Source: Paeniroseomonas aquatica
GTDB taxonomy: Bacteria > Pseudomonadota > Alphaproteobacteria > Acetobacterales > Acetobacteraceae
DNA: 50,900 bases
Direction: 5' to 3'
Assembly (NCBI RefSeq): GCF_030409335.1
Contig: NZ_JAUFPN010000036.1
Coordinates: 1 to 50,900, forward strand
Shown here: positions 11,801-50,900 of the stretch, piece by piece
How the letters are laid out: every line of letters begins with the position of its first letter
How positions within the stretch are numbered: the first letter of the stretch is position 1
The notes under the pieces: model-generated
The model's database searches: none
Seen by the model: the letters and a program-made list of their open reading frames with translations, nothing else
Told to the model about the DNA's origin: nothing
Program-made: the position numbers and the translations under genes

Positions 11801-11999
11801 GCCAATCCTCTGGAGCACCGGCACCGGCTCGGAGCTCATGCAGCGCATTGCTGTGCCGATGGTCGGCGGCATGGTGTCGTCGACGGTGCTTACGTTGCTG
11901 GTCATCCCCGCAATCTTCAGTGCTATCAAGGGCTGGGGTTTGCCGAAAACCACGACGGTCGCCGCGCATCAAATGCATTTTCTTGCGGCGGCGAAGTGA
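8838..11999 (+). CDS. cusA: Cu(I)/Ag(I) RND efflux pump CusA
   Basis: Proton-driven inner-membrane pump, 1053 residues, typical of HME-RND proteins. TM4 reads GAMVDAAIVMIENAHK, the signature of the copper/silver group (HME4), not the Czc type. Porter-domain methionines expected to bind Cu(I) are present in TLMYMPVSLPG, PAPTEMFETI and TMPIKARIDMLSTGIRTP. Twelve TM helices are visible in the usual 1+5 / 1+5 arrangement around two large periplasmic loops. Last of the coupled cusCBA set; followed after 80 bp by a Met-rich secreted protein. Confidence 0.95.
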   Translation: MIARIIRWSVANPFLVLLVTLFVVGTGVWAVRNTPLDAIPDLSDTQVIVYTDYPGQAPQVVEDQVTYPLTTALLTVPRSKTVRGFSFFGASFVYVVFEDGTDLYWARSRVLEYLSQAARRLPEGVTPSLGPDATGVGWVYQYVVTGAQRSLAELRSVQDWFLRYQLARAEGVAEVASVGGFVQQYQVVVDPQRLQAYRIPLSRVTEAIRASNRDVGGRSVEMSETEYLVRGRGYLRNIADIEQIVLMMQGGTPVLLRDVARVELGPEERRGITELNGEGEVVSGIVLQRQGQNALTVIDSVKKTLADIAGSLPEGVTVTGVYDRSTLIGRAIDTLKYTLLEESIIVALVCVVFLLHVRSALVAIIMLPIGVLIAMTLLHFLGLSSNIMSLGGIAIALGAMVDAAIVMIENAHKRLEQAPPGASRVQVLTDAAVEVGPALFFSLAVITVSFLPVFTLEDQEGRMFRPLAFTKTFAMAGGALLSVTLVPVLMVLFIRGRIMPERKNPVNRLLIWLYRPVISVVLRVRTLTILLALVAVGATAWPFSKLGSEFMPTLNEGTLMYMPVSLPGLSVTKAAELLQTQNRIIKSFPEVESVYGKAGRAATATDPAPTEMFETIINLKPEAEWRPGITVDSLTAEMDAALRMPGVSNAWTMPIKARIDMLSTGIRTPVGVKVYGPDLGGIDQLSRQVEAAIRSVPGTTSAFAERVEGGYYLEIEPDRSALARYGLMVGDLQETIATALGGEPVTTTVEGRARYSVNVRYPRGLRSDPQGIANQVLVQAPTGVAIPLGQLAAVSVKRGPPTIRTENAQLVNYVYVDMHGRDIGGYVADAQRAVAEQVTMPAGFHVEWSGQFEYMQRAKAKLTVVVPVTLLLIFVLLYMNFGRLTETLIVMLSVPFALVGGVWLMYLMHFNLSVAVAVGFIALAGVAAETGVIMLIYLDHALDEIRERCRLEGRPLTQADLRLAIMEGAVERVRPKMMTVTAIMAGLLPILWSTGTGSELMQRIAVPMVGGMVSSTVLTLLVIPAIFSAIKGWGLPKTTTVAAHQMHFLAAAK

Positions 12000-21530: not shown

Positions 21531-21688
21531 CCTGCTACCAGATTTTTTGATTTGTCTTTCGTCAAACGGACCGGCTGCTGCCTTCTGCTGCCGGTCCCAT
21601 CTGCCCGGGCATATTTTGTCACAGTGTTACGTGCCACTTACCACAACATTCCGCGTTTCTTGAATCTGCTGGTTCAGGAAACACGCCT

Positions 21689-22027
21689 ATGGAGCTGTCC
21701 ACCCATATCCAGCTTTGCCTGGACTGCCACCGCACATGCACTGCCTCTGTCATCCATCTACTGCATGGCGGAACCGGCCAGGGCCATGATGAGCAGGCGC
21801 ACCTTGTTGCCCTACTCGACTGTGCGCAGATCTGTGTAACCTGCGCCGACTTCATGACCCGATCATCGCCGCATCACGCGCATATCTGTCGCGAATGCGC
21901 CGACATCTGCGAAGGTTGTGCCACGCTGTGCGAAGCGCATGCTGATCCGGACGGCACTTTCAAGCGCTGCGCCGAGGTTTGTCGACAATGCGCCGTGGCT
22001 TGTCGGGAGATGAGCGGCCACGACTGA
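21689..22027 (+). CDS. Four-helix copper storage protein (Csp3-like, DUF326)
   Basis: A 112-residue protein with 15 cysteines in CxxxC-type spacing along helices: LCLDCHRTC, DCAQICVTC, ICRECADICEGCATLC, RCAEVCRQCAVAC. This is the Cys-lined four-helix bundle of copper storage proteins; no signal peptide, so it is a cytosolic Csp3 type that can hold many Cu(I) ions. It has a His-containing N-terminal loop (HLLHGGTGQGHDEQAH). A weak CueR-like promoter upstream would make it copper-induced. Confidence 0.9.
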   Translation: MELSTHIQLCLDCHRTCTASVIHLLHGGTGQGHDEQAHLVALLDCAQICVTCADFMTRSSPHHAHICRECADICEGCATLCEAHADPDGTFKRCAEVCRQCAVACREMSGHD

Positions 22028-30018: not shown

Positions 30019-33000
30019 ATGATTGCAGCTATTCTTAATTTTTCCGTCCGGCAGCGTTGGCTGGTGGTGCTGCTGGTCGCGGCGGCGGCGGGCTTCGGCC
30101 TGCGTTCGCTGCAGTCGCTGCCGATCGACGCGGTGCCCGATATCACCAACAATCAAGTACAGATCAACACCTTAGCTCCAGCGCTTTCGCCTTACGAGGT
30201 CGAGAAGCAAGTGACTTTCCCGGTCGAGACAGCGCTGGCCGGCATCCGCGGTCTGCAATCGACGCGCTCGCTCTCGCGCAACGGCTTCTCTCAGGTCACC
30301 GCGATTTTCAGCGACCAGGTCGATGTGTACTACGCCCGGCAACAGGTGCTGGAACGCCTCTCTGACGCGCGTGAGCTGCTGCCGCCCGGCGCCGAGCCGC
30401 GCATGGGGCCAATCTCAACCGGCCTTGGCGAGATTTACATGTGGGCGATCGACTATGCCCCGCGGCGCACGGGTGACGTGGTGCGCGACGGCCGGCCGGG
30501 CTGGCAAGCCGATGGCAGCTACGTCTCGGCTGAAGGCCAGCGGCTGACGACGGAGCTGGAGCGCATCGCTTATCTGCGGACCTTGCAGGACTGGGTGGTT
30601 CGGCCTCAGCTGCGCAATGTGCACGGGGTCGCCGGCGTCGATTCGATCGGTGGCTTGGTAAAGCAGTTCCACATCCAGCCGGACCCGGCACGGCTAATCG
30701 GCCTTGGCCTCTCGCTTGCGGATGTGGCCGACGCGCTGGAGCGCAATAACGCCAGCCGCGGCGCCGGCTATATCGAGCGCGGTGGCGAAGGGTACGTCGT
30801 GCGCTCCGGTGGTCGATTGGAGACGTTAGAGGATATCGGCAACGTTGTGGTCTCGACCCGCGAGGGCGTGCCGGTCCGGGTCCGCGACATCGCCCAGGTG
30901 CTGATCGGGCGGGAGTTGCGCACCGGCAGTGGCAGCATTGGCGGGCAGGAAGCGGTGATTGGCACCGCGCTGATGCTGATCGGCCAGAACAGCCGCACCG
31001 TCGCCGCGGCGGTCGATGCGAAGGTTCAGGAGATCGCCCGCACCCTGCCGCCCGGGATCCAGCTTCGCACCGTCCTCAACCGGACCGAACTGGTGGATGC
31101 CACGGTGTGGACGGTGGCAAAGAACCTCGCCGAGGGGGCGCTGTTGGTTGTCGTGGTGCTGTTCCTGCTGCTCGGCAACCTGCGGGCCGCAGTGGTCACG
31201 GCATTGGTCATCCCGGTGACCATGTTGATGACCGCGACGGGGATGCTGGAAGCCGGCATCAGTGCCAATCTGATGAGCCTCGGCGCGCTTGATTTCGGGC
31301 TGATCGTGGACGGGGCGGTGATCATCGCCGAGAACAGCCTGCGCCACTTGGCGGACAAGCAGACCCACCTGGGACGCAAGCTGACCTTGCCGGAGCGGCT
31401 GGAGACGGTTGCGGCCTCGGCGCGAGAGATGATCAAGCCATCGGTCTTCGGCCAAGCCATCATCATCCTGGTCTATGTTCCTCTGCTCAGCTTCCAAGGC
31501 GTCGAGGGCAAGATGTTCGCGCCGATGGCGATGACCGTCATCATCGCGCTGGTGGTAGCCTTCGTCCTATCGCTCACCTTTGTGCCGGCGATGATCGCGC
31601 TGGTGGTCACCGGCAAGGTGCAGGAGAGAGACAATTGGCTGGTGCGCGGCCTCAAGCGAGCCTATGCGCCAGCGCTGCGGTTCTCTATCCGCCGGCCAGT
31701 GCCGGTCATCGGCGCCTCCGCCCTGCTCTTTGCCGGTGCGCTCTTGCTCGGGTCGCGCCTTGGCTCGGAGTTCATCCCACAGCTGGATGAGGGCAATATT
31801 GCAATGCACGCGCTCCGCATTCCCTCAACCTCGCTCACCCAATCACAGGCGATGCAATTGCGGGTCGAGCAGACGGTGTCGCGCTTCCCCGAGGTGGCGT
31901 TGGTCTTCTCCAAGACGGGCACGGCGGAGGTCGCCGCCGACCCGATGCCGGTGAACGTCTCGGACGCATTCGTCATCCTCAAGCCGCGGGACCAATGGCC
32001 GGATCCGTCCCTAACAAAGGAGGAACTGGTTCGCCGCGTGCAGGAGGCTGTGCAGCAGGTACCCGGCAACAATTACGAATTTACTCAGCCTATCCAGATG
32101 CGGTTCAACGAACTGCTGGCGGGCACCCGTGGCGACCTCGCGGTCAAGGTCTTCGGTGAAGAATTTGGCCCAATGCTTGCAACGGCAAACCAAGTGGCCG
32201 GTGTGTTGCGCGGCATTGCCGGCGCCGAGGATGTCCGGGTGGAGCAGGCGACGGGGCTGCCCTTCTTGGAGATCACCGTGGACAAGGCGGAGATCGCCCG
32301 GCGCGGCCTCAGCCTCAACGCTGTGCAGGAGGTCATCGGTACCGCCATCGGCGGCCGCGAGGCCGGCTTCGTCTTCGAGGGCGACCGCCGCTTCGCCATC
32401 ATCGTCCGGGTGCCGGAGGTAGTGCGGAACGACATCGAGGCGTTGCGGAACCTGCCCGTGGCGCTGCCTAATGAAGGGCGCTCAGGGTCAAGCACGGCGT
32501 CGGTGCCGCTGCGCAGCCTTGCCGCCTTTAATTTGACCGAGGGGCCGAACCAGGTCAGCCGCGAAAACGGCAAGCGGCGTGTAGTGGTCACCGCCAATGT
32601 CCGCGGCCGCGACATCGCCTCGGTGGTGGCGGAGGCACAGGCCGGGGTGGCACGTGAGGTGCGGCTACCGGCCGGGTACTTCATCACATGGGGCGGGCAG
32701 TTTGAGAACTTGGAAGCCGCGCGCCAGCGGCTTCTGGTGGTGGTGCCTGGCTGCTTTTTCCTGATTTTCCTGCTGCTCTACAGCGCGCTTGGCTCGCCGC
32801 GGGATGCGCTGCTGGTGTTCAGCGCGGTGCCGCTGGCACTCACCGGTGGCATCGCCCTGCTTTGGCTGCGCGACATGCCACTATCGGTTTCGGCTGCGGT
32901 TGGCTTCATCGCGCTGTCCGGCGTCGCTGTTTTGAACGGCTTGGTCATGCTGAACCACATCAAGCAACTGCGGGCTGAGGGGCTCGGGCGCGAGGATGCG

Positions 33001-33303
33001 GTGCGCCAGGGTGCGATGGACCGGCTGCGACCGGTGGCGATGACCGCTCTTGTTGCTTCCCTGGGGTTTGTCCCAATGGCAATCGCCGCCGGGGCCGGCG
33101 CCGAGGTGCAGAAACCGATCGCTACTGTGGTCATCGGCGGCTTGATCACCGCCACCTTATTGACCTTGATGGTACTGCCGGCGCTCTACGCTCGCTTCGG
33201 CAGCGCTGATGGGGTGCCGCCAGAAGGCGAAAAATCAATGGGCCCACTTAATAATGTGGAACTCGCTGCCGAGCGCTTCGATAAACCAGTGCTGGTAAAA
33301 TAG
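30019..33303 (+). CDS. czcA: Zn/Co/Cd RND efflux pump CzcA
   Basis: Inner-membrane proton/metal antiporter of 1094 residues. TM4 reads LDFGLIVDGAVIIAENSLRH, the signature of the divalent Zn/Co/Cd group (HME1) and distinct from CusA of this window. Other markers: DAVPDITNNQVQINT near the N-terminus, EFIPQLDEGNIAMHALRIPS and TQPIQMRFNELLAGTRGDLA. Full-length with twelve TM helices. Ends where base composition changes to AT-rich. Confidence 0.95.
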   Translation: MIAAILNFSVRQRWLVVLLVAAAAGFGLRSLQSLPIDAVPDITNNQVQINTLAPALSPYEVEKQVTFPVETALAGIRGLQSTRSLSRNGFSQVTAIFSDQVDVYYARQQVLERLSDARELLPPGAEPRMGPISTGLGEIYMWAIDYAPRRTGDVVRDGRPGWQADGSYVSAEGQRLTTELERIAYLRTLQDWVVRPQLRNVHGVAGVDSIGGLVKQFHIQPDPARLIGLGLSLADVADALERNNASRGAGYIERGGEGYVVRSGGRLETLEDIGNVVVSTREGVPVRVRDIAQVLIGRELRTGSGSIGGQEAVIGTALMLIGQNSRTVAAAVDAKVQEIARTLPPGIQLRTVLNRTELVDATVWTVAKNLAEGALLVVVVLFLLLGNLRAAVVTALVIPVTMLMTATGMLEAGISANLMSLGALDFGLIVDGAVIIAENSLRHLADKQTHLGRKLTLPERLETVAASAREMIKPSVFGQAIIILVYVPLLSFQGVEGKMFAPMAMTVIIALVVAFVLSLTFVPAMIALVVTGKVQERDNWLVRGLKRAYAPALRFSIRRPVPVIGASALLFAGALLLGSRLGSEFIPQLDEGNIAMHALRIPSTSLTQSQAMQLRVEQTVSRFPEVALVFSKTGTAEVAADPMPVNVSDAFVILKPRDQWPDPSLTKEELVRRVQEAVQQVPGNNYEFTQPIQMRFNELLAGTRGDLAVKVFGEEFGPMLATANQVAGVLRGIAGAEDVRVEQATGLPFLEITVDKAEIARRGLSLNAVQEVIGTAIGGREAGFVFEGDRRFAIIVRVPEVVRNDIEALRNLPVALPNEGRSGSSTASVPLRSLAAFNLTEGPNQVSRENGKRRVVVTANVRGRDIASVVAEAQAGVAREVRLPAGYFITWGGQFENLEAARQRLLVVVPGCFFLIFLLLYSALGSPRDALLVFSAVPLALTGGIALLWLRDMPLSVSAAVGFIALSGVAVLNGLVMLNHIKQLRAEGLGREDAVRQGAMDRLRPVAMTALVASLGFVPMAIAAGAGAEVQKPIATVVIGGLITATLLTLMVLPALYARFGSADGVPPEGEKSMGPLNNVELAAERFDKPVLVK

Positions 33304-37857: not shown

Positions 37858-38328
37858 TCAGATAACCTGTCCCCCTCGAAAACGCATGAAAACCTGGCGC
37901 CGGTTGCCCGGACCAAAGGCAATAACATTATAAATGTCGTCGGGCTGGTTTGGCACTTCCATCCCCGGCGACCCAATAGGCATGTATGGTACGGCCAAGC
38001 CGCGCACGCCGCCCGGGCGTTGTGAGAGGAGCCTCAGGACAGCTCCGGCAGGTACGTGACCCTCCAGTGCGTACCCCTCGACTGAACTTGCGTGGCAGGA
38101 AAGCAGGTCCGCTGGAATGCCAAGCGTGCGACGGACAGCGTCCGCCGAAGCTACAAGGTTATCCTCTACAATAAACCCAGCACCACGCATGTGCCTTACC
38201 CAGCCAGTGCAGCAGTTGCAGTTGGGGTCGCGCCAAACGCGAAGCAATCGCTGGTCGGTAGACAGTCCCAAAGCGTCAGATGCAATACCAGTCGCGGCAA
38301 AAGTTGCAAAGAAAAAACGCCGTTTCAT
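37858..38328 (-). CDS. DUF411 metal-binding protein
   Basis: Exported protein of about 156 residues from MKRRFFFATFAATGIASDAL (an ATG at 38352 is also in frame). The mature domain shows the DUF411 pattern: VWRDPNCNCCTGWVRHMRGA (CxCC), AGFIVEDNLV, LLSCHASSVEGYALEGHVPA and YMPIGSPGME. DUF411 proteins sit in copper clusters and are thought to bind copper in the periplasm. Monocistronic, leftward. The KRRFFF start may be a Tat-like signal. Confidence 0.88.
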   Translation of the reverse strand: MKRRFFFATFAATGIASDALGLSTDQRLLRVWRDPNCNCCTGWVRHMRGAGFIVEDNLVASADAVRRTLGIPADLLSCHASSVEGYALEGHVPAGAVLRLLSQRPGGVRGLAVPYMPIGSPGMEVPNQPDDIYNVIAFGPGNRRQVFMRFRGGQVI

Positions 38329-38722
38329 TTCAATATCTTTCTGATTTAGCAATCGTTGATACTGCTAGTTGTTCCGTTGTTACCAGCCCTCTCCTGGAGT
38401 CGATTGGCGAGGCAATTAGTGCCTCGCCGCTGTGCGAAATTGAGGTCAGCAGGCGCTGATCCCGAAGTGGGTTGCCGCAGCTCGGCAGGATGCTCTCGCC
38501 GTCACCGCCGCAACTACCCGATCCACCGACACGCCCATCGCCCCCTCGCCAAAAAGCAACTGAGCCAGCTTGGGGTGGGCGCGAGGATCATATGCGATTC
38601 AGCTAGCCCCAAAACCAATCCAGCCTCTATGCGGCCAACTCCGAACCATGAAACCACAATTCAATTCTTAAAGGTGCTTCACCAAGGCTGGTGCAGCCAG
38701 ACCAAGCTGCTCCAGGACTAGC
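38329..38722. other. Gap with decayed transposase sequence
   Basis: No intact gene. Contains an IS630-type remnant (38448-38535) and an open frame on the + strand that I judge to be noise. Confidence 0.4.
38448..38535 (-). pseudogene. IS630-type transposase N-terminal remnant
   Basis: Leftward frame VSVDRVVAAVTARASCRAAA then THFGISA matches the opening HTH of IS630-type transposases (RVVAAV.AGAS.R.AA..FG.S). Nothing downstream is readable in the same frame. Confidence 0.45.
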
Positions 38723-39013
38723 CTACGGATTGCCGGAGCGGCCGCGCTGGGAACCCATGGTGTGGTCCATGTGCTGGCAGTACGTCGCCATCCGCTGCAT
38801 GTCGGGCGACATCGGCGCGCCCTGCCTGATTTGCTGCCGCATGTCGTCGCAGTGGGCCATCATCGCCTGATGGTCACCCGGGGGCGTTACGGCAGCACTA
38901 GCTGGGGTGGGGGATGTAGCCACCGGGCGGGAAGTCTGCTGCGGCGCACAGGCCGAGAGGCTTGCCGTCAGCAGCACCGTCAGGCCCATACCAGTGCTCT
39001 TCAATTTCTTCAT
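38723..39013 (-). CDS. Small Met/His lipoprotein
   Basis: A 96-residue lipoprotein from MKKLKSTGMG with AAAGGAG upstream. Lipobox TASLSAC, then a Pro/Thr linker and a helical Met/His segment GDHQAMMAHCDDMRQQIRQG, APMSPDMQRMATYCQHMDHT. Two Cys and several His/Met suggest copper or zinc binding in the envelope. No family recognised. Upstream dyad at 39081-39109 may regulate it. Confidence 0.7.
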   Translation of the reverse strand: MKKLKSTGMGLTVLLTASLSACAPQQTSRPVATSPTPASAAVTPPGDHQAMMAHCDDMRQQIRQGAPMSPDMQRMATYCQHMDHTMGSQRGRSGNP

Positions 39014-39080
39014 GCGGTTCTCCTTTTCTAAAACGGTTGCTCGGTGGCAACCCATACCGACGCAGCGCGGTGCTGACCTC

Positions 39081-39193: not shown

Positions 39194-39817
39194 TTAGGCT
39201 GCTACACAAGTACGGCGCGCCTCTTCCACCGCAAGTGGCTTCGGACAGGAGCCGTGCATGAAGCTCTCCAACGGACAGGAGGCGCAGGCGGCGAGTAACA
39301 GCGACGCAAGTGCACGCCGCGCTCGGTGGTGCCGCACATGCAGTGCGTTCGGCAATATGCCGAGATCCGCTGCCACATTGTCCCGCTTCTCGCCGCGGAG
39401 GTCGAGAAGGCGAATTAGAGCCGCCTGGTCTGGCCGCATCGCGGCCAAGAGTGGCACGATGCTGTCGCAGGCACATTGAGAAGGCTCCGGTTCTGGAGCG
39501 ACCAGCGTTTCTGCAAATTCTTGCGGGTCTTTCAGCGACTCTCGTCGACGCGCAAACTCGCGCCCGTGGTCGGCGAGAGTGGAGGACAGCACACGCCCGA
39601 GCCAACCGTGGACGCGCTCCGGGTCGCGTAGCTCCCCCGCGTGTTCTAGCGCCCGCAGTGCGAAGCGCTGGAGAACGTCATCGGTGCCTTGGCGATCACC
39701 ATTTAAGTGCCGGATGACTACACCGCGCAGTCTGGCCTGCGCCTCGGCGACGGCGCCGCGGACGGCAGCGTGAGATGCAGCCTCGGCGCAGGGAATTGGG
39801 CCGTCGTGGTCGCGCAT
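39194..39817 (-). CDS. ECF sigma factor with Cys-rich C-terminal tail
   Basis: A 207-residue sigma-70-family factor, ATG after GAGGAG. Region 2 LNGDRQGTDDVLQRFALRAL and WLGRVLSSTLADHGREFARR; region 4 MRPDQAALIRLLDLRGEKRD and LGILPNALHVRHHRARRALA. The C-terminus carries LAACASCPLESFMHGSC and RRTC, and a CAC lies in the linker. No anti-sigma gene is adjacent. ECF factors with C-terminal Cys clusters (CorE type) are switched directly by metal ions; this one may work that way (inference). Divergent from the 40277-44545 operon. Confidence 0.8.
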   Translation of the reverse strand: MRDHDGPIPCAEAASHAAVRGAVAEAQARLRGVVIRHLNGDRQGTDDVLQRFALRALEHAGELRDPERVHGWLGRVLSSTLADHGREFARRRESLKDPQEFAETLVAPEPEPSQCACDSIVPLLAAMRPDQAALIRLLDLRGEKRDNVAADLGILPNALHVRHHRARRALASLLLAACASCPLESFMHGSCPKPLAVEEARRTCVAA

Positions 39818-40276: not shown

Positions 40277-41071
40277 ATGCATAGTAGACAGGCATTCTGT
40301 GCTGCGGCCGCGCTTGTAGTTTTGGTGCCGCTGCTCCCGCTTGGAGCAGCGGCGGAAGAGCGTGCCGTGCCCCTGCAGCTTGCCATGATGGAAATGATGC
40401 CGATGGGCAGCGGGGCTGCACAACAAGCCTCGCCCGGAGGCGCGGCGATGCCTGGAATGCCGGGCGCGCAAGCGGGGCCGCCAGCATCGAGCGGCATGAT
40501 GGATGATGACAGAACGCGTATGGGTGGCGCCCCGGGGCAGGGGCGAGCCCAGATGCCAATGGGTGGAGGTACGCCCAGTCAGGCACAGCCTCGGATGCCG
40601 ACGGGTCAGGCTCAGCAGCCGATGGCCGAGTGCCCGATGATGGGGATGATGCGGGATATGATGCGCAGTGGCGCCATGCCGCAGGGGATGCAAGGCGGCG
40701 CGGCGGCCGGGATGGGTGCGATGGGTAATGGCCCGCCCACGGGTAGCTCCGCCGCACGCTTGGAGGGGCGCATCGCCTTTCTCCGCATGGAGCTCCGCAT
40801 CACGGACGTTCAGGCGCCTGCCTGGGACACCTTTGCCAGCACGCTCCGCGCTGGACGCGAGCACCTCGACGCCGCTCGTGCTGCACTACAGGACAGCGGC
40901 ACGGCGGCCGATCCGATGGCCCGGCTCACATCCTTCGAAAGCCACTTGCGGGAGCGTACCGAGGCCATTCACATGACGCGGATGGCGTTCGGCAACCTCT
41001 ACGGCTTGTTCGACGACGCTCAAAAGCGCACGGCGACCGCCACAATGCTGCCTTTCATCGGAGCTTTCTAA
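40277..41071 (+). CDS. Met-rich periplasmic CpxP/Spy-like protein
   Basis: A 264-residue exported protein, ATG after AAGGA. Signal peptide (FCAAAALVVLVPLLPLGAAA), then a Met/Gly/Pro-rich half with MMEMMPMGS, MPGMPGAQ, CPMMGMMRDMMRSGAMP, and a C-terminal helical LTXXQ-like domain RLEGRIAFLRMELRITDVQA, PAWDTFASTLRAGREHLDAA. Spy/CpxP-like proteins are periplasmic chaperones/metal sensors. It is the first gene of the redox operon and its stop is 4 bp before the reductase gene. Confidence 0.8.
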   Translation: MHSRQAFCAAAALVVLVPLLPLGAAAEERAVPLQLAMMEMMPMGSGAAQQASPGGAAMPGMPGAQAGPPASSGMMDDDRTRMGGAPGQGRAQMPMGGGTPSQAQPRMPTGQAQQPMAECPMMGMMRDMMRSGAMPQGMQGGAAAGMGAMGNGPPTGSSAARLEGRIAFLRMELRITDVQAPAWDTFASTLRAGREHLDAARAALQDSGTAADPMARLTSFESHLRERTEAIHMTRMAFGNLYGLFDDAQKRTATATMLPFIGAF

Positions 41072-41075
41072 AAGC

Positions 41076-43052
41076 GTGCAGCGAAGCCTCGGAAACACCG
41101 GCCGCTTCGCAGCGCTGCTTAGCGCGGCACTGATTGGGATCGCCGTGGCGCAGACCGATCCTGGCGAGCACAGTGCGCACCATCCGGGCCAGTCCACGGG
41201 AAGTACAGAACCGGCGGCACCACCAGCAAACGTCCCCGCCATGCCGTCCATGCCCGCTCCTCAGACGGGCGCGGGATGCGGCGGTATGATGGGCTGCATG
41301 GGTGGTCCGGGGCGGCCATTTTACGCCTCCCTTCTGGACATGCCCGCACTCACGGCCGAGGCGCGCCGCGTCATCGAGGCCGAAGCTGAACGGCGCATCG
41401 GATGGGGGTCCCAGGCCATTACCTCGGGCCAGACGCGGCTTCACCACGCGCTGGCCGCCAACGACACAGCGGCGGTGCAGCAGATTACGGCTGGCGTTCG
41501 AGAGGGTCTGCTGCTGCTTGAGAGCGGGACGGCGGCGCTGCGCGCTATCGAGGCAGGAACACCACCGAAGCAGTTCGCCCTGGTCTGGTTCAGGGACCAG
41601 CTTGGCCTGCCGCTGCTTGGCGAGGCGGCACCGATGGCGATGGACGGCGGCCCTTGGGGCCTTTCCTGGTACCACCTGACCTCCATGGCGTTCCTTATCG
41701 CGTTCTTGGTCGGGACACTCCTGATTCAGTACGCGCGCATGCGGCGGGTCAACGCACTTGTCCGGCGGCTTTCCCCTGTGCCCACAACCGAGGACAGGTT
41801 GGACCGGGCGCCAAATTTTGGAGGAGCATCCAAGCTAGATCTGCCAGCAGCGCCTCCCGCCGAAGTCGCCGTTCTCTCGCTCCCCGGGGCGTCCGCTGCT
41901 CCCGCCTTGGCCACCAGCGCCGCGCCGTCGCCTATCGCGGCTGCTGCGGCCGCGCGGCGTCCGTGGTCGGGCCAACTGCGTGTCGCATTGATTTTTCCCG
42001 AAACACCCGACGTGAAAACCTTTCGCCTCGTGAATCCAGAGGGCGGGGACATTCCTTTCACCTTCATGCCGGGCCAGTTCGTGACTTTCTCGGCCGAGAT
42101 CGGTGGCGTGCGCAACAGACGCTCGTACACAATCGCCTCCTCGCCGACCCAGCGGAGCCACGTCGAGGTAACCGTCAAACGCGAGGACCAGGGGCTTATC
42201 TCTCGCCATTTGCATGACAAGGTGGCGGTCGGCATCCTGCTCGATGTGTCGGCCCCATTGGGCGTGTTTACCTTCACCGGCACCGAGGCCAACAGCATCG
42301 TGCTGATAGCGGGCGGGGTCGGCATCACGCCAATGATGAGCGTCACCCGCTACCTAACCGACCGTTCCTACCCTGGGGACATCTATTTTCTCTACGGTGC
42401 GCGCACGACAGACGACTTCATCTTTCGTGAAGAGCTCGAGTATCTCCAAAAGCGACATACCAACCTGCACGTCGCGGCGACGATGTCGCGCGCCGAAGGG
42501 ACCGCCTGGATGGGGCCGGAAGGACCCGTCTCCAAGGACTTCATCGCAGGATCCGTCCCCGAAATTGCCAAGCGACGCGTCCACCTCTGCGGGCCGCCGC
42601 CAATGATGGAGGCAATGAAAGCGGCGCTCGCCGAGCTTGGAGTGCCGAAGGAGCAGATCAAGACTGAAGCGTTTGGCCCGGCCCGGGGCGTCGCACCGGG
42701 AACCCCGGCTCCCTTGCCAACACCTACTCAGACATCATCACCCGGGCCTACTCCACAGACAGCCTCGGCCTCAGCAGTCCCACGAATCGTCACGACCGAG
42801 GTTCGGTTCACTAAGTCGGGCAAGACCGGGGCGCTGGCGCCGGACCAGACGGTGCTTGAGGCAGCTGAGGCCGTAGACGTCGAGATTGACTACTCCTGCC
42901 GGGTCGGCATCTGCGGCGTTTGCAAGGTGCTGCTCCTCAAGGGCGAGGTGACCATGGAGGTTGAGGAGGGGCTTCCTCCCGATGAGAAGGCTCGTGGCAT
43001 TGTTCTAGCCTGCCAAGCAAAGTCGGTCGGCAGCCTCGAGGTGGAGGCGTAA
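41076..43052 (+). CDS. Membrane-anchored NAD(P)H:FAD/2Fe-2S reductase with periplasmic Met-rich domain
   Basis: A 658-residue multidomain protein, GTG start 4 bp after the previous stop. Order: signal/anchor (1-26); Met/Cys segment AGCGGMMGCMGG; periplasmic helical domain resembling the 40277 protein or CnrX-type sensors (80-190); TM helix near 198-225 (SMAFLIAFLVGTLLIQYARM); Pro/Ala linker; ferredoxin-NADP reductase module with FAD motif RRSYTIASS (about 347), GGVGITPMMS (about 412) and CGPPPMMEAM (about 504); and a C-terminal plant-type 2Fe-2S domain with Cys608, 613, 616 and about 646 (CRVGICGVC). Predicted topology puts flavin and cluster in the cytosol. It would take electrons from NAD(P)H and pass them to the next gene product. 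Confidence 0.85.
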   Translation: MQRSLGNTGRFAALLSAALIGIAVAQTDPGEHSAHHPGQSTGSTEPAAPPANVPAMPSMPAPQTGAGCGGMMGCMGGPGRPFYASLLDMPALTAEARRVIEAEAERRIGWGSQAITSGQTRLHHALAANDTAAVQQITAGVREGLLLLESGTAALRAIEAGTPPKQFALVWFRDQLGLPLLGEAAPMAMDGGPWGLSWYHLTSMAFLIAFLVGTLLIQYARMRRVNALVRRLSPVPTTEDRLDRAPNFGGASKLDLPAAPPAEVAVLSLPGASAAPALATSAAPSPIAAAAAARRPWSGQLRVALIFPETPDVKTFRLVNPEGGDIPFTFMPGQFVTFSAEIGGVRNRRSYTIASSPTQRSHVEVTVKREDQGLISRHLHDKVAVGILLDVSAPLGVFTFTGTEANSIVLIAGGVGITPMMSVTRYLTDRSYPGDIYFLYGARTTDDFIFREELEYLQKRHTNLHVAATMSRAEGTAWMGPEGPVSKDFIAGSVPEIAKRRVHLCGPPPMMEAMKAALAELGVPKEQIKTEAFGPARGVAPGTPAPLPTPTQTSSPGPTPQTASASAVPRIVTTEVRFTKSGKTGALAPDQTVLEAAEAVDVEIDYSCRVGICGVCKVLLLKGEVTMEVEEGLPPDEKARGIVLACQAKSVGSLEVEA

Positions 43053-43721
43053 TTGAGCGCCCGGGAGCGGCTCACCGTCAGCCTGCTTATGGCTATGGTG
43101 GCACTGTTCGTGCCTGGCTTTCTGCTGCATGCGGCGCCGCGCTTTCCGGGCAGCCTGACCGGGGGGTTGCTTGGGATCGGTGGTGTCCTGGGCATGCTCC
43201 TGTTGCTCGCTTATTCGCTGACGAAGCGCATCCCCTGGCTGAGACGGCGCGTCGCGCTGGGCACAATGCTCTCCTTCCATGTCTACGCGGGCATGATCGG
43301 GGCGGTGCTCGGGATCCTCCATACTGGGCACTACTACCGAAGCCCGCTCGGGATCGCGTTGGTATCCGTCATGCTGGCCGTGGTGCTGAGCGGCTTCGTC
43401 GGCCGTTACTACCTGGTACAACTTGGGACTGACATCCGCGACCAGCGGGAGGAACTTGGTGCACTCCGCAATCGATACGATCTGCTAGCCGCGGAAAGGA
43501 GCGTTGGTTCGGCCGCTATCGTGGGGTTGGCCGATATATCCATGCGTGCCCTCGTGGCTGCCATCGCCGATCTGGAGCACGCGATCGGCCGACGTGAGGC
43601 GTTGAAGCGTACCCTTTCGCGCTGGACCGTGCTGCATGTAGCGGCGGCGATCGCGCTCTACCCGTTGCTCGCCCTGCACGTTTGGAGCGGAGTTTACTAC
43701 GGTCTGAGGTGGCTCCAGTGA
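43053..43721 (+). CDS. Membrane b-type cytochrome, predicted di-heme
   Basis: A 222-residue membrane protein with TTG start directly after the reductase stop, GGAGG 5-6 bases upstream. Four or five TM helices. Two helices each carry a His pair 14 residues apart: SFHVYAGMIGAVLGILH and LHVAAAIALYPLLALH, the spacing used by bis-His b-hemes stacked across the membrane (cytochrome b, NOX and ferric reductase-like proteins). A soluble coiled segment (DQREELGALRNRYDLLAAER) lies between them. Likely carries electrons from the cytosolic reductase to the periplasmic cytochrome. Overlaps the next gene (GTGA). Confidence 0.75.
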   Translation: MSARERLTVSLLMAMVALFVPGFLLHAAPRFPGSLTGGLLGIGGVLGMLLLLAYSLTKRIPWLRRRVALGTMLSFHVYAGMIGAVLGILHTGHYYRSPLGIALVSVMLAVVLSGFVGRYYLVQLGTDIRDQREELGALRNRYDLLAAERSVGSAAIVGLADISMRALVAAIADLEHAIGRREALKRTLSRWTVLHVAAAIALYPLLALHVWSGVYYGLRWLQ

Positions 43722-44545
43722 GGTTCACAACCCTGCTTTACACGGCGCTAGCGGCGGTCGGCCTCGCGGCGGCCGTTGCTGTGCCTACGGCGGTGCATCG
43801 CTTCGGGTCCGAAGGCGTCCCGCTATGGACCGCTGCGGCGAACCCAGGGCCTCTCTCTGCCGCGCATGATATTCTTGGGGCGCAGTGCGAAGCCTGCCAC
43901 GTGCCGACCCGTGGGGTCGAGGCCGCGTCCTGCCTGACCTGCCACGCCACCGCGGCACCCGAACTGGTGACGAAGCCCTCGACCGCCTTCCACCAGAACA
44001 TCGGCGAGTGTGCAGGCTGCCATGTCGAGCACCAGGGCCGCGGGCGCCGCCCCGTCAACATGGACCATGCGGTCCTGGTCGCGGCGGGGCACTCCCGAGC
44101 GGCAACGTCTGGCGCCATGCAGACAGAGGGGGAGGCAATATGGCACACCCTCGCGCGGCTCCGGAGCCTGCTTGACCACACCGCTGCCGATCTGCGTAGT
44201 TCCACGCTGGTGCCGAACTCGCTCCCCGCAGAGGGGTCGAACCAGCTCGATTGTGCAAGTTGCCACGCCAACCGCGACCCGCACCGGACGTTGTTCGGCC
44301 GCGACTGCCAGAGCTGTCACACTACCGCGGCTTGGACATTGGGCGGCTTCCGGCACCCCTCGCCGCGCTCGCGGGACTGCGTCCAATGCCACCAAGCGCC
44401 GCCGAGCCATTACATGATGCATTTCGAGATGATGGACCGAACCATCACCGGCCAAGGGCAAGCACGAGTTGAGCAATGCTTTCTATGCCACCAGACCGAC
44501 GCGTGGAACAACATCCGCGGCGTCGGCTGGTACAAGCATCACTGA
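43718..44545 (+). CDS. Heptaheme c-type cytochrome
   Basis: A 275-residue protein from the GTG at 43718 (VRFTTLLYTALAAVGLAAAV, signal or anchor helix). Seven CxxCH heme motifs: CEACH, CLTCH, CAGCH, CASCH, CQSCH, CVQCH, CFLCH, with many extra His as distal ligands (HVEHQGRG, HQAPPSHYMMH). Ends AWNNIRGVGWYKHH. Cytochrome c3/NapC-like electron transfer protein facing the periplasm. Terminal acceptor unknown; metals such as Cu(II), Fe(III) or Hg(II) are options suggested by the island. Confidence 0.88.
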   Translation: MRFTTLLYTALAAVGLAAAVAVPTAVHRFGSEGVPLWTAAANPGPLSAAHDILGAQCEACHVPTRGVEAASCLTCHATAAPELVTKPSTAFHQNIGECAGCHVEHQGRGRRPVNMDHAVLVAAGHSRAATSGAMQTEGEAIWHTLARLRSLLDHTAADLRSSTLVPNSLPAEGSNQLDCASCHANRDPHRTLFGRDCQSCHTTAAWTLGGFRHPSPRSRDCVQCHQAPPSHYMMHFEMMDRTITGQGQARVEQCFLCHQTDAWNNIRGVGWYKHH

Positions 44546-44590: not shown

Positions 44591-44938
44591 CTACCGCCGC
44601 TGCGCCGGAGCGGGCGCAGGAGCCGGGGCCGCTGGGGCGTGCTGCACATCGGGGCCAGTGCCGGAATTGCCGGTGATCCTACCGCCCGAGGGCCCGCCCA
44701 TGTTGCCGCCCCCCATCCGGCTATGGTCCATATCAGGACCGGCGCTCCCGCCCTGGGGGTTGAGCGTCGGGGCAGGCCCGCCGGGACGTTGAGGTTGGCC
44801 CTGGCCGCCCATCCGGCTGTGATCCATCTCGGGACCGGCGCCTTGGGGGTTGAGCGTGGGCTGTGCTAGCGCCTCGCCAGCGGCAAGCGTGGCAATCAGT
44901 GCGCCGATGGCGACAAGCCGTGTGATCTTCAGAGTCAT
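44591..44938 (-). CDS. Secreted MDHSRMG repeat protein
   Basis: A 115-residue protein from MTLKITRLVAIGALIATLAA, signal peptide to LAQ. The mature part has a PTLNPQG unit then PEMDHSRMGG, and again PTLNPQGGSAG then PDMDHSRMGG, followed by GRITGNSGTGPDVQH and a Pro/Ala tail. It is clearly homologous to 50350-50691 and related to 2904-3293. Function unknown; His/Met/Asp clusters suggest metal binding. Convergent with the redox operon. Confidence 0.75.
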   Translation of the reverse strand: MTLKITRLVAIGALIATLAAGEALAQPTLNPQGAGPEMDHSRMGGQGQPQRPGGPAPTLNPQGGSAGPDMDHSRMGGGNMGGPSGGRITGNSGTGPDVQHAPAAPAPAPAPAQRR

Positions 44939-45084
44939 GATGACTTTCTTTCTTTCAAAGGACCGTATCTTCGGTGCCAGTTCCGGCACCGTGTCTGCGG
45001 CTGCCGACATGACGCAGGAGCGCTCAATGCCTTACATCTCGTTCCAGAATCGAAGCAGAGTGGGGGCGCTGCACCTGTAGGTGG

Positions 45085-46491
45085 CTAGGCTTGACCCACG
45101 CCAGAAGGCGTCACCGGAGAAAGAAGGGCGCCGTTGCTGGGGGGATCACCATCGCGCCCGACTGTGTGCTGACGCGGCAACTGCAGTGTCGCCACCAGCC
45201 CGCCTGCGCGGCGGTTGGCGAGGGTCACTGTGCCGCCGTGGGTGGTGGCAACTTGGCGGACGATGGCAAGGCCAAGCCCCGTTCCGCCAGTGCCGCGGTT
45301 GCGGGAGGCGTCCAGGCGGTGGAACGGCTCGAACACCGTCTCCAATTCCGTCTCCGGAATGCCGGGGCCATTGTCCTCGACCCGTACCATGACATCTTTC
45401 GGCGCCTCTTCGACGGTGACATGCGCCCCACCGCCGTGCTTCACGGCGTTGTCGATGAGGTTCCCGATGGCACGCTTGATCGACACCGGACGGAGCCGCA
45501 TCGGAATACGATCCGGTCCGATATAGGTCGCGGAAGCGCCGCGATCGGTGGCGTCGTCCACAAGCGTACTCAGAATGGCCGCGAGGTCCGCCTGCCGCGG
45601 CTCCTCGCTTTCGGTTTCGCCACGTAGGTAGGCGAGGGTTGACTCCACCATGCCCTCCATCTCGTCGAGGTCACCGTCGATCGCTCGCTGCACCTCCAAG
45701 TCGTCGAGGAAGCCCGCGCGTAGGCGCAGCCGCTGAATGGGGGTGCGCAGGTCGTGGCTAACAGCCGCGAGTGCCTGCGTGCGGTCGGCGACCAAGCGAT
45801 GAATCCTTGCCTGCATGGCGTTGAAGGTTCGCGCGGCCTCCTGGACCTCGCGGGGTCCAGTCTCCGGTAGCGGCACTGGCGCCGCGCCCCTACCGAAATC
45901 TTCCACTGCCAAGGCGAGACGCTGCAAAGGCTTGGTAATCCACTGCACCACGAGCAGCGATGCGAGCACGATGCCGAGCGCCATTGCGCTGAGCGAGGGG
46001 AGCGAGGTGTGGGTCGGGACCGGCGCGACGTCCGGTGACTCGGCGGCGAATGAAACCCAACTGGCGTCCGCGAGGTGCATGGCGCCTCGGAGGCGCCTCG
46101 GACCCTCGTCCGCTGAGGTAAGACCAAGCTGGAGGCGGAGACCTGCCAGATCGGGCGCGCGCTGCTGCAACCGCTTGCGAAGCGGTGCCAAAGCCGTATC
46201 GCCCGCAGATGCCGCAGGGGGGGAGCGGCTCCAGCTGGCCTCGAAGGTAGACGTCGAGAGGGCGCGCGCGGCGGCCGCGCGCACCTCCTCGGGTAGGGTG
46301 CCCATGACTCGTGCGGCCATGGCGGCATGATCCGCCAAATGGGCCTCGTGTCCTTCCTCCACCGCGCCACGTACGTCCCGCTCAAGCAACCAAACGCTTC
46401 CGAGATGGAAGACCAGGAGCCCAACAAATAGGGCGAGGGTGGTACGGCCCGCTAGTGTCGCTGGCGAGAGCCAGCTGAGTCCGCGTCTCAA
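45085..46491 (-). CDS. Sensor histidine kinase (CopS/CusS-like)
   Basis: A 468-residue membrane kinase. TM1 TTLALFVGLLVFHLGSVWLL, periplasmic sensor, TM2 LSAMALGIVLASLLVVQWIT, HAMP, H-box AAVSHDLRTPIQRLR with His246, N-box NLIDNAVKHGG, G1 EDNGPGIPET and G2 GGTGLGLAIVRQ. Paralogue of 25043-26464. Its gene overlaps the response-regulator stop (ATGA) and lies in an operon with copZ, so copper is the likely signal. Confidence 0.9.
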   Translation of the reverse strand: MRRGLSWLSPATLAGRTTLALFVGLLVFHLGSVWLLERDVRGAVEEGHEAHLADHAAMAARVMGTLPEEVRAAAARALSTSTFEASWSRSPPAASAGDTALAPLRKRLQQRAPDLAGLRLQLGLTSADEGPRRLRGAMHLADASWVSFAAESPDVAPVPTHTSLPSLSAMALGIVLASLLVVQWITKPLQRLALAVEDFGRGAAPVPLPETGPREVQEAARTFNAMQARIHRLVADRTQALAAVSHDLRTPIQRLRLRAGFLDDLEVQRAIDGDLDEMEGMVESTLAYLRGETESEEPRQADLAAILSTLVDDATDRGASATYIGPDRIPMRLRPVSIKRAIGNLIDNAVKHGGGAHVTVEEAPKDVMVRVEDNGPGIPETELETVFEPFHRLDASRNRGTGGTGLGLAIVRQVATTHGGTVTLANRRAGGLVATLQLPRQHTVGRDGDPPSNGALLSPVTPSGVGQA

Positions 46492-47279
46492 ACCACGCGC
46501 TCCACCGCTGGCACAAACATATAGCCCGAGCCACGCACTGTCTTGATAACCGCCGTCCCACTCTCCTTGCCCTCTAACTTGCGGCGCAGTCTGCTGACCA
46601 GCACGTCGACGCTACGGTCGTTCGGGTCCGCAAGGCGGCCGCGCGACAGCTCCAGGATCTGGTTCCGCGCCAACACCCGGTGTGGGTGCTCGATGAACGC
46701 CAGCAGGAGGTCGTACTCAGCGCCGGAGAGATCAACGACCGTGCCCCCGGGCGCCAGCAACTCGCGCCGCGCCAGGTCTACGGTCCAGCAGTCGAAGCGC
46801 AGCCGTTGGACGGTGGCATGAGCCAAAGGTTCTGCAGGAGTCGCAGTCGGGGAGTGAGCGCGGCGCAGTACCGCGCGGACGCGCGCCAGCAGCTCCCGCC
46901 TCCCGAACGGCTTAGGCAGGTAGTCGTCTGCGCCAAGGTCGAGGCCGAGAACACGATCCGCTTCTGCTCCCTTAGCGGTGACCATAACCACTGGCAGTGA
47001 GCCCCGCTCGGCTCGCAGGCCACGGAGAAGCTCAAGGCCGGAAGCACCGGGCAGCATGATGTCGAGCAGGATCAGGTCGACCTCGGTATTCCGAAGCGTC
47101 TCCCACATCTCCCGGCCGTCGCGGACCCCGGTCGAGCGGAATCCGTTCTCACGCAGCAGCCGGGCGATAAGGTGGCGCATAGCCGCGTCGTCCTCAACGA
47201 CGAGGACGTGCGCTTCTGGACCGAGCCCGCGTCGGCCCTGTCCCTCTATAGGCGGATTACCGCTGCGGACCGGGTTCAT
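46488..47279 (-). CDS. OmpR-family response regulator (CopR/CusR-like)
   Basis: About 263 residues from MNPVRSGNPP at 47279; the frame is open to 47384 but overlaps copZ if extended. Acidic pocket HVLVVEDDAAMRHL, phospho-acceptor Asp73 in LILLDIMLPG, TKGAEAD region and winged helix LSGAEYDLLLAFIEHPHRVL, RSVDVLVSRLRRKLEG. Paralogue of 24258-25046. The gene is 31 bp after copZ, so the pair is probably transcribed from the CueR-type operator at 47552-47574. Confidence 0.9.
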   Translation of the reverse strand: MNPVRSGNPPIEGQGRRGLGPEAHVLVVEDDAAMRHLIARLLRENGFRSTGVRDGREMWETLRNTEVDLILLDIMLPGASGLELLRGLRAERGSLPVVMVTAKGAEADRVLGLDLGADDYLPKPFGRRELLARVRAVLRRAHSPTATPAEPLAHATVQRLRFDCWTVDLARRELLAPGGTVVDLSGAEYDLLLAFIEHPHRVLARNQILELSRGRLADPNDRSVDVLVSRLRRKLEGKESGTAVIKTVRGSGYMFVPAVERVV

Positions 47280-47310
47280 CCCGGGCCCGGTCTGAGCACC
47301 AGGCCGGGCA

Positions 47311-47514
47311 TCAGGCGGCGAGCCTCTCGCCCTTGAACCCCGCCTGCCGCAGCGCGAAGGCCAGAGCGTCCGCGTCAGCCCCACCTTCTACCGTGACTTC
47401 GTGGCGTTCCATGTCCACCCGGATCTCGGATGCAGGAGCCACGCCGCGCAGGGCGGCTGTAACCGAACGGGCGCAGCCGCCGCACCTCATGTTAGGAATT
47501 CTAAAGGCTACCAT
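47311..47514 (-). CDS. copZ: CopZ-like HMA copper chaperone
   Basis: A 67-residue soluble protein from MVAFRIPNMR, after GGAGG. HMA fold with NMRCGGCARSVTAALRG (CxxC), VDMERHEVTVEGGADADALA and FALRQAGFKG. Cytosolic Cu(I) carrier. A longer frame from 47610 covers the operator and is rejected. First gene of the copZ / response regulator / kinase operon. Confidence 0.9.
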   Translation of the reverse strand: MVAFRIPNMRCGGCARSVTAALRGVAPASEIRVDMERHEVTVEGGADADALAFALRQAGFKGERLAA

Positions 47515-47610: not shown

Positions 47611-47632
47611 TTGACCTTCCTATCGTGGGAAG
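47611..47632 (+). promoter_or_regulatory. CueR-type operator for the regulator gene
   Basis: TTGACC (47611-47616), CTTCC, seven bases, GGAAG (47628-47632) and CACCCT at 19 bp. It reads toward the MerR-family gene at 47685. Confidence 0.8.
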
Positions 47633-47684
47633 CCCCACCCTTTTGATCAGAATATGCTGTTGGACGGTCGGAACGGAGGTGGAC

Positions 47685-48167
47685 ATGAACATTGGACAGG
47701 CGTCGGCGACCTCGGGCGTGTCAACCAAGATGCTGCGCTATTACGAGAGCATTGACCTGATTCCGCAGGCGAGCCGGACCGAGGCGGGCTACCGAATCTA
47801 CTCAGTCAAAGATGTGAACACGCTCCGTTTCATCCGACGGGCGCGTGACCTCGGTCTATCTATAAACCGCATCAAGCTGCTAGTCGGCCTGTGGCAAGAC
47901 CGGGAGCGGTCAAGTGCCGACGTCAAGCGGGTCGCTACGGAGCACGTAGCTGAACTCGACGCCAAGATCCTTGAACTCACAGCCATGCGGGACACTTTGC
48001 AGGACCTGGCCGATGCCTGCCATGGCGACCACCGGCCCGACTGCCCAATCTTGCATGATCTCGAGGGCGGTGGCCGCTTGTCAACGCAAGCGGGCGTCGT
48101 GACAAAGGATGCTAGCCACCCGAAATATGGCACAGCTCATGGCGCCATTCCACGTCACGAGGCGTAG
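47685..48167 (+). CDS. cueR: Cu(I)-responsive MerR-family regulator (CueR/HmrR), second copy
   Basis: A 160-residue regulator from MNIGQASATSGVSTKMLRYY, with GGAGG upstream. Metal loop ACHGDHRPDCPI places cysteines at residues 112 and 120, as in CueR. About 35 extra residues follow the metal loop. Probably activates its own promoter, the divergent copZ operon and copC/copD. Paralogue of 4402-4941. Confidence 0.9.
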   Translation: MNIGQASATSGVSTKMLRYYESIDLIPQASRTEAGYRIYSVKDVNTLRFIRRARDLGLSINRIKLLVGLWQDRERSSADVKRVATEHVAELDAKILELTAMRDTLQDLADACHGDHRPDCPILHDLEGGGRLSTQAGVVTKDASHPKYGTAHGAIPRHEA

Positions 48168-48398: not shown

Positions 48399-48788
48399 GT
48401 GACCGTAAAACTTCCCCAACGCTCCGCCCTCGTGGCCGCTATCGCTGTCCTGCTCTCTTTGGCTGCGGCCGGTCCCGCCCTGGCGCACTCCGACGTTCAG
48501 CACGCCCAACCCGCTGATGGCGCAGTGCTCCGAAACTCTCCACCCGCTATCTCCCTGATGTTTGCGGTACCGGTCCGGGTGGTAACCCTGCGGCTGCTTG
48601 ACGAGAGCGGCCGTGAGCGGCGCATAACTCGTGAGGGAGAGCGTGGCGCCGCAGTCGAAAAAGTGCACGCGACCGTGCAGGAAACGCTGCCGCCAGGCGC
48701 CTACCGGGTCGAGTGGCGCGGCGCCTCGCCGGACGGCCACGTCGGCGGCGGGACACTGGCCTTCCGGGTCGAGCGCGCCGCCCGGTGA
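48399..48788 (+). CDS. copC: Periplasmic copper-binding protein CopC
   Basis: A 129-residue protein, GTG start (VTVKLPQRS) after CGAGG. Signal peptide ALVAAIAVLLSLAAAGPALA, mature N-terminus AHSDVQHAQPADGAVL with the conserved copper-binding His at position 1-2 of the mature form, and SPDGHVGGGTLAFRV with the second His site. The Met-rich Cu(I) site of classical CopC is absent, so a Cu(II)-only type. Stop overlaps copD (GTGA). Confidence 0.9.
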   Translation: MTVKLPQRSALVAAIAVLLSLAAAGPALAHSDVQHAQPADGAVLRNSPPAISLMFAVPVRVVTLRLLDESGRERRITREGERGAAVEKVHATVQETLPPGAYRVEWRGASPDGHVGGGTLAFRVERAAR

Positions 48789-50349: not shown

Positions 50350-50691
50350 CTATTTGCGGGGCGCTGAGCCACTCTCATGCCCGTGCCGAACTTCCGGTCC
50401 GCTGCCAGAGTTCCCGGTAATCGTACCACCAGACGGGCTACCAACGTTACCGCTGCCCATACGGCTGTGATCCATTTCAGCATTACTGCTGCCACCTTGC
50501 GGATTGAGCGTCGGTGCAGGTCCCCGCGGAAGTTGTCCGGGCGCCGGGGCGCCTCCCATTCGGCTGTGGTCCATCTCAGGACCAGCGCTTCCACCCTGCG
50601 GAATTAAAGTTGGCTGAGCAACGCCGGCATTCATACTGGCAAAGACTGCGATGGTGGCAGCTACCGCAAGCCCGGTAAGTTTTAGACGCAT
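50350..50691 (-). CDS. Secreted MDHSRMG repeat protein
   Basis: A 113-residue protein from MRLKLTGLAVAATIAVFASM with GGAGA upstream and a signal peptide ending GVAQ. Units PTLIPQGGSAG then PEMDHSRMGG, and PTLNPQGGSSN then AEMDHSRMGSGN, end with GGTITGNSGSGPEVRHGHES. Strong paralogue of 44591-44938. Role unknown. Confidence 0.75.
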   Translation of the reverse strand: MRLKLTGLAVAATIAVFASMNAGVAQPTLIPQGGSAGPEMDHSRMGGAPAPGQLPRGPAPTLNPQGGSSNAEMDHSRMGSGNVGSPSGGTITGNSGSGPEVRHGHESGSAPRK

Positions 50692-50900
50692 TTGTGAATC
50701 TCCGTTGAAGCGGCGCATTTCATGTCATTGCGGCGCTCCGATACAGATGCCTCCATGACCACCTTGCGACAACAGCGTGCAGCACTTCAGCAATGCTTTG
50801 TAAGTCTGGGTGGTGGCTTAGGCTTGCATCAGGTATTTCGAGCCGCTCTTGATAGCGCGAAGTAAGCGTTGTGGCGTTGGCACATTGCGGCGCGGGCTGA

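Follow-up and report, generated by a model that had tools for sequence, protein, structure and literature searches.

A predicted NAD(P)H-driven transmembrane electron conduit ending in a heptaheme cytochrome and found mainly in copper-resistance settings

Four adjacent genes of Paeniroseomonas aquatica, here called A, B, C and D, form one tight unit on the plus strand at positions 40277-44545 of the window, the stretch of 50,900 nucleotides (positions 1 to 50,900 of contig NZ_JAUFPN010000036.1) that was analysed. The overall explanation that fits best is an export of electrons that is driven by NAD(P)H (the reduced nicotinamide adenine dinucleotides), serves the copper-stressed cell and ends on Cu(II) or a similar metal ion; judged from the sequences, its chances are about even. 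Its parts differ in strength: the conduit architecture is very probable, a role in copper or metal stress is likely, and Cu(II) or a similar metal ion as the main acceptor is somewhat doubtful. The four genes are as follows (FAD, flavin adenine dinucleotide).

Gene A: 40277-41071, plus strand, ATG start, 264 amino acids; secreted, Met-rich protein of the Spy/LTXXQ type
Gene B: 41076-43052, plus strand, GTG start, 658 amino acids; secreted N-terminal domain, one transmembrane helix, FAD/NAD(P)/2Fe-2S domains
Gene C: 43053-43721, plus strand, TTG start, 222 amino acids; five-helix membrane protein with two H-x13-H helices, predicted diheme cytochrome b
Gene D: 43718-44545, plus strand, GTG start, 275 amino acids; putative periplasmic heptaheme cytochrome c with an N-terminal hydrophobic helix

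Genes A and B are separated by 4 bp and B and C by 0 bp, while the start of D overlaps the stop of C within the letters GTGA. The initial annotation had read these four coupled genes as one operon, and its coordinates were right. Its descriptions of the products as a Met-rich Spy/CpxP-like protein, a membrane-anchored FAD/2Fe-2S reductase, a membrane protein with two H-x13-H helices and a cytochrome with seven CxxCH motifs likewise agreed with the domain and alignment results given below.

Protein B consists of a secreted N-terminal part, a single transmembrane helix at about residues 199-217 by hydropathy, and FAD_binding_6, NAD_binding_1 and Fer2 domains, all three above their Pfam cut-offs. 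Its FAD, NAD and 2Fe-2S patterns were present across 22 aligned rows, with the exception of one FAD pattern missed in L018; this set, also used for D, was chosen and leaves out loci L002, L004, L010, L012 and L014. The secreted domain contains His, Met and Cys residues and could be aligned in 14 rows. No convincing match to it was found in Pfam, PHROGs or the sequences of the Protein Data Bank (PDB), and its assignment as an LTXXQ/Spy domain was rejected for want of a match.

Protein C carries the His pairs H76-x13-H90 and H195-x13-H209, and both pairs were kept in all 25 aligned rows, a set in which the window and the other copy from the same genome are counted; this exceeds what chance would give. 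The initial annotation had described the two pairs correctly and had left unmentioned two further residues, H26 and H93, which are invariant in the same 25 rows, a small correction. Identity to the window protein is 39-85% for eighteen of these rows, and near-identical rows are present (L008/L014). The hydrophobic stretches were read as five transmembrane helices, with a sixth stretch at residues 150-174 taken as cytosolic. C stayed under every Pfam cut-off, the best match being DUF4405 (PF14358; E 0.0037, 18.2 against 26.7 bits). A trace of Ferric_reduct (PF01794) was found at E 0.0069, and since its 16.9 bits fall short of the cut-off of 28, membership of the ferric-reductase family is not claimed for C. 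Searches with PDB sequence profiles for C, D and the N-terminal domain of B gave nothing usable, the PHROGs search gave no match, and two weak matches in viral contigs were not used.

Protein D keeps its seven CxxCH motifs and eight further invariant His residues in 22 of 22 rows of the chosen set, window included; the eight His would be enough for bis-His ligation of all seven hemes. D can be placed in the cytochrome c3/c7 class III group, since it combines CxxCH motifs with scores above the Pfam cut-offs for Cytochrom_c3_2 (32.9 against 25 bits) and Cytochrome_C7 (28.3 against 24.8 bits); a match to MtrC/F domain II/IV was above cut-off as well. At 23 of 25 loci D is one frame with seven CxxCH, the exceptions being L012, where D lies two genes downstream with seven CxxCH (counted by eye), and L014. 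The latter, a Roseomonas mucosa plasmid, has D split over two frames at 15618-16570, with three and four CxxCH.

From these features B, C and D may be proposed to act as a three-protein transmembrane reductase. Electrons would pass from cytosolic NAD(P)H to the FAD and then the 2Fe-2S cluster of B, from there to two stacked b hemes in C (inner H76/H195, outer H90/H209), and would leave C for the membrane-anchored heptaheme D in the periplasm; loop charges suggest a cytosolic flavin domain of B and a periplasmic D. Protein A and the secreted part of B would bind metal near the electron exit. The use of the module would be in copper resistance, most likely in the reduction of periplasmic Cu(II) to Cu(I), which would then be held or expelled by Met-rich proteins, Csp-type stores and Cus-type pumps. 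For the heme loading, topology, direction of flow, metal binding and acceptor of this scheme we infer from gene order, domains, ligand conservation, strict C-D pairing and neighbourhood, which are themselves read directly from the DNA. An NAD(P)H/flavin/iron-sulfur input, b-heme ligand pairs, a periplasmic multiheme cytochrome c and co-inheritance, the marks of a conduit of this class, were all found, at the level of sequence only. As a predicted architecture, the path from NAD(P)H to the periplasm put forward in the initial annotation is supported by conservation, strict co-occurrence and neighbourhood.

Gene A is more loosely attached than B-C-D. Its product matches LTXXQ/Spy (PF07813) over residues 162-256 at E 4.5e-14 (53.4 bits against a Pfam cut-off of 24.3) and contains 11.4% Met. 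A homologous Spy protein is found in Acetobacteraceae, and other small Met/His-rich proteins stand at several other loci; the upstream partner elsewhere is often Met-rich, and its homology to A is not constant. At 17 of 23 loci this partner has at least 5% Met, a count biased by a pick that favours Met-rich frames. MsrQ is a ferric-reductase-like heme protein, and the Met-rich partners together with the Ferric_reduct-like trace in C would fit an analogue of MsrPQ, in which the electrons do not reduce metal but repair damage in the periplasm of copper-stressed cells, such as the oxidised Met of A-like proteins or disulfides in c-type cytochromes or metal sites. We consider this improbable: to our knowledge multiheme c proteins do not repair Met sulfoxide, and the annotation tables of the 18 plasmid regions list neither MsrP nor a molybdenum enzyme, although no search aimed at one was made.

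Relatives of C were found at 11 genome loci and in 52 plasmid records. They were present in 6 of 349 genomes sampled from the phylum and in 13 of 200 from the family, the window's own genome being counted each time, and D was found in the identical 13 family genomes. The 52 plasmid records were the same for C and D when the lists were compared by eye; the 57 plasmid places for each are not one-to-one, with 3 and 4 in BTAi1 and the Gluconobacter C in pieces. Pairwise distances of B, C and D were correlated (r 0.908, 0.887 and 0.827), values reached by 0 of 2000 permutations. A second copy in the window's own genome has a C 70% identical to that of the window and a CopA 8 kb away. On a Legionella anisa plasmid (L107, 14084-17387) the module looks decayed or divergent, and no copper gene is annotated in the 28-kb stretch.

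In a draw of Bacteroidota, C relatives were found in 8 of 296 genomes, with one strong match (the centre of the draw) and seven weak ones. A metagenome-assembled genome (MAG) of this phylum has an ICMT gene and, by eye, a DUF2933-like gene between C and D. Regions around five of the seven weak matches were read, and in all five the distant C relative adjoins cytochromes with up to 37 CxxCH (L097 7869-13581, L098-L101); a flavoprotein with a 4Fe-4S motif is also there in four (L097-L100), and Pfam, run on two of these, supported it in both. The pairing of a C-type protein, a pyridine-nucleotide flavoprotein and a multiheme cytochrome c therefore recurs outside copper islands, which supports electron transfer and warns against binding the wider family to copper.

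The setting of the module itself is a metal island, as the initial annotation had it, and neighbourhood and co-occurrence narrow this to mainly copper resistance. All 13 family genomes with the module have a CopA oxidase over cut-off, compared with 47 of the 187 others (Fisher 6e-8). Furthermore, each of the 13 has a CopA-type match that shares a contig with a module copy and lies 1-17 kb from it, that of G510 being a fragment below cut-off; the 13 genomes are not independent, since G349, G385 and G424 have the same spacing between module and CopA. A neighbour library of 101 proteins was picked by hand from annotated loci, 14 of them from the window, which therefore matches its own proteins. 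Thirty-one module regions were reduced to 27 by dropping the duplicates L058, L060, L066 and L071, with several still coming from one genome (G510, Dankookia, one MAG). A metal-type library gene was present in 21 of the 27 and in 1 of 14 control regions, and CopA, CopB, CopC, CopD or Csp lay near 14 of 26 module regions (window excluded) and near none of the 14 controls; both contrasts are inflated, as the controls (14 returned of 20 asked) are mostly large contigs unmatched for mobile islands. The copper association is present at family level and in the neighbourhoods, and weak at phylum level.

On plasmids the neighbours include the multicopper oxidase CopA, CopB, a copper ATPase, MerR regulators and Csp four-helix copper proteins, as well as DUF411, DUF305, DUF1622 and DUF2933; B-C-D-DUF1622-Csp occur as one run in Sphingobium and Caulobacter. 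Metal-resistance annotation was found in 15 of 18 plasmid regions read, which were chosen for diversity and not at random. One of them, L018, bears a heavy-metal or mercury label and not a copper one, and regions L017, L103 (with efflux of the resistance-nodulation-division, RND, type only) and L107 are without clear metal-resistance genes. Pentose-phosphate genes (glucose-6-phosphate dehydrogenase, 6-phosphogluconate dehydrogenase, lactonase or transaldolase) stand in six of the loci stretches (L009, L015, L017, L025, L055 and L056), a suggestive hint at an NAD(P)H supply. Two of those 6-phosphogluconate dehydrogenases are annotated as NAD+-dependent, which makes NADH a possible donor beside NADPH.

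The CopA-type match near at least one module copy in all 13 family genomes could also mean that D feeds the reduction of O2, through the multicopper oxidase or directly, with the module serving as a periplasmic electron sink or NAD(P)H oxidase. This is very improbable, as no CxxCH occurs in the seven multicopper oxidases checked, where a fused oxidase-cytochrome was looked for and not found, and as some module loci, including that of the window contig, show no CopA within the stretch that was read.

Several observations weigh against Cu(II)-directed electron export as proposed here. A CopA-type oxidase makes Cu(II) from Cu(I), usually the more toxic form, as described for PcoA in the accessible text of PMC10141476; a Cu(II) reductase beside CopA is therefore no obvious detoxifier. 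The window contig itself has CopC and CopD, and the library tblastn gave no match to a CopA oxidase or CopB there. Across the phylum, CopA over cut-off was present in only 3 of 6 module genomes and in 60 of 343 others (p 0.07). Six of the 27 module regions (L009, L010, L011, L012, L057 and L070) contain no metal gene of the library, and a Pfam search on the neighbours of L010, L011 and L057 and on one L009 frame yielded neither another pathway nor a copper gene. The best NCBIfam names for B are oxygenase reductases and similar enzymes, all far below cut-off, so that a donor role fits and the partner is not indicated. Predicted structures were too weak for use, with a mean predicted local distance difference test score (pLDDT) of 39.4 for D and 67.9 for the AlphaFold model of C, whose first three helices scored about 50-62. 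With that model of C, nothing matched in Foldseek at E <=0.001, and the best 50 of 681 rows included no cytochrome; the matches were helical-bundle noise, and this route was abandoned. Finally, the operon partner of the module in Alteromonadaceae (Alteromonas, Glaciecola) is a [NiFe] hydrogenase.

This last observation opens a serious rival, namely that the module serves as a general-purpose, exchangeable connection between NAD(P)H and redox enzymes of the periplasm, with copper islands and a periplasmic [NiFe] hydrogenase as its customers and with inward flow from H2 to NAD(P)+ possible. We regard it as unlikely but deserving of weight. On plasmids pAM1A3 (A. macleodii) and pGLAAG01 (Glaciecola), a gene for a membrane protein of about 407 amino acids and then the hydrogenase cluster come after A-B-C-D on the same strand; from A through to the small subunit of the hydrogenase, neighbouring genes overlap slightly or are spaced by <20 bp (L102 11151-18649, L105 8374-17843). 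The BTAi1 plasmid pBBta01 (L104 14778-29619) has several module copies, one of them beside CopB and a multicopper oxidase and about 9 kb from a related hydrogenase. The cluster of strain AltDE is ordered orf1/cyt/orf2/hynD/hupH/hynSL in the accessible text of PMC3102683, and, judged by gene order, Orf1 and Cyt seem to be C and D. According to the same portion of that source, Orf2 belongs to the set needed for maximal hydrogenase activity in E. coli, and Orf1 and Cyt do not, which says nothing on electron flow in vivo. Hydrogenase subunits were matched at only three of 107 loci (L102, L104 and L105), no HynS/HynL match was found in the window, and a 28-kb stretch of Salinimonas has the module and Orf2 with no hydrogenase subunit found. 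The initial annotation had held that the same four genes in a non-metal pathway would tell against it, and this was half borne out: B-C-D is operonic with a hydrogenase, but CopC/CopD or a copper ATPase lies about 8-12 kb from the hydrogenase-linked copies in Alteromonas and Glaciecola, and in the Salinimonas stretch the module is present with no hydrogenase subunit found. The accessible part of PMC4781885 describes strain HOT1A3, the carrier of pAM1A3, as better able to withstand Zn, Hg and Cu than two other strains of A. macleodii, a comparison of strains and not of the module genes.

A bolder combination of the two readings, which we think rather unlikely, sees the module as a mobile redox wire that can run in either direction between the cytosolic NAD(P)H pool and the periplasm, with a 2Fe-2S flavoreductase, a diheme cytochrome b of a new family and a heptaheme cytochrome as its components. 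Its periplasmic partner would be swapped between copper detoxification and hydrogenase, and with a copper-resistance plasmid the reduction of metal beyond the membrane could be powered either by NAD(P)H or by H2.

The remainder of the window contains further genes of interest, listed here in order of position.

8838-11999 and 30019-33303: two CusA/CzcA heavy-metal RND pumps
21641-22015: Csp-like match (four-helix copper storage), 35% identity, E 4e-13
37858-38352, minus strand: DUF411 protein (PF04214, E 2.6e-21), a recurrent module neighbour
38723-39055, minus strand: small Met/His/Cys-rich protein (10.0% Met, 4.5% His), no Pfam family; adjoins the sigma factor
39194-39817, minus strand: extracytoplasmic function (ECF) sigma factor, SigZ-like (E 5.9e-15, below cut-off), with a Cys-containing C-terminal tail; divergent
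44591-45010, minus strand: MDHSRMGG-repeat protein beside the operon, from translation
45085-46491, minus strand: histidine kinase (Pfam)
46488-47384, minus strand: response regulator (Pfam)
47625-48167, plus strand: MerR-family regulator (Pfam MerR), CueR-like; tblastn 59% identity to CueR of Caulobacter plasmid L024
about 48.4-48.79 kb (from 48381), plus strand: CopC-like frame; tblastn 51% over 48504-48773, and translation
to 49684, plus strand: CopD (PF05425, E 7.3e-19)

The sigma factor also stands upstream on the minus strand in L003, L005, L006 and L007, and the kinase/regulator pair stands downstream on the minus strand in the same four loci. The sigma factor is a possible regulator of the module and perhaps of a metal-sensing, CorE-like type. 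DUF411 was also found near L005, L007, L054, L056 and L069. A second MDHSRMGG-repeat frame, similar to the protein at 44591-45010, lies beyond CopCD at about 50360-50720 on the minus strand.

Term searches of the PMC literature found no assigned function for the module and no mutant data on its part in copper tolerance. Copper resistance is usually described in terms of pumps, chaperones, oxidases and stores, to which a plasmid module using NAD(P)H to send electrons into the periplasm would add a reductive branch. An electron-export module may also explain the recurring sugar-dehydrogenase genes in copper islands, and the O2-tolerant hydrogenase of Alteromonas may have its electron partner in it. 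Furthermore, it would offer a small, defined system for the study of NAD(P)H-driven electron export.

Among known systems, proteins of the FRE/NOX/STEAP and MsrQ types use two H-x13-H helices to hold stacked b hemes, through which electrons that come from NAD(P)H and flavin in the cytosol reach the outer face of the membrane. C shares the two H-x13-H helices but sits below the Ferric_reduct cut-off; furthermore, the dehydrogenase of the module is a separate protein with a 2Fe-2S cluster and a secreted domain, and the electrons would continue to a heptaheme cytochrome. Conduits of the NapC/CymA, CbcL and MtrC types are quinol-linked, with hemes carrying electrons out of the membrane. D is similar to these by its cytochrome c3/c7 and MtrC domain II/IV matches, whereas the input domain of the module is an NAD(P)H reductase. 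The cupric reductase CcoG provides membrane-bound bacterial reduction of Cu(II), like the role proposed here, and unlike the module no heme chain is described for it in the accessible text of PMC7558416. Judged by gene order, Orf1/Cyt in the AltDE HynSL cluster would be C/D of the same family, and in the plasmid copies of Alteromonas and Glaciecola B and C are accompanied by a D with seven CxxCH. There the genes are given as hydrogenase accessory genes, with no function stated in the accessible part of PMC3102683, whereas the window is without a hydrogenase match and has copper neighbours.

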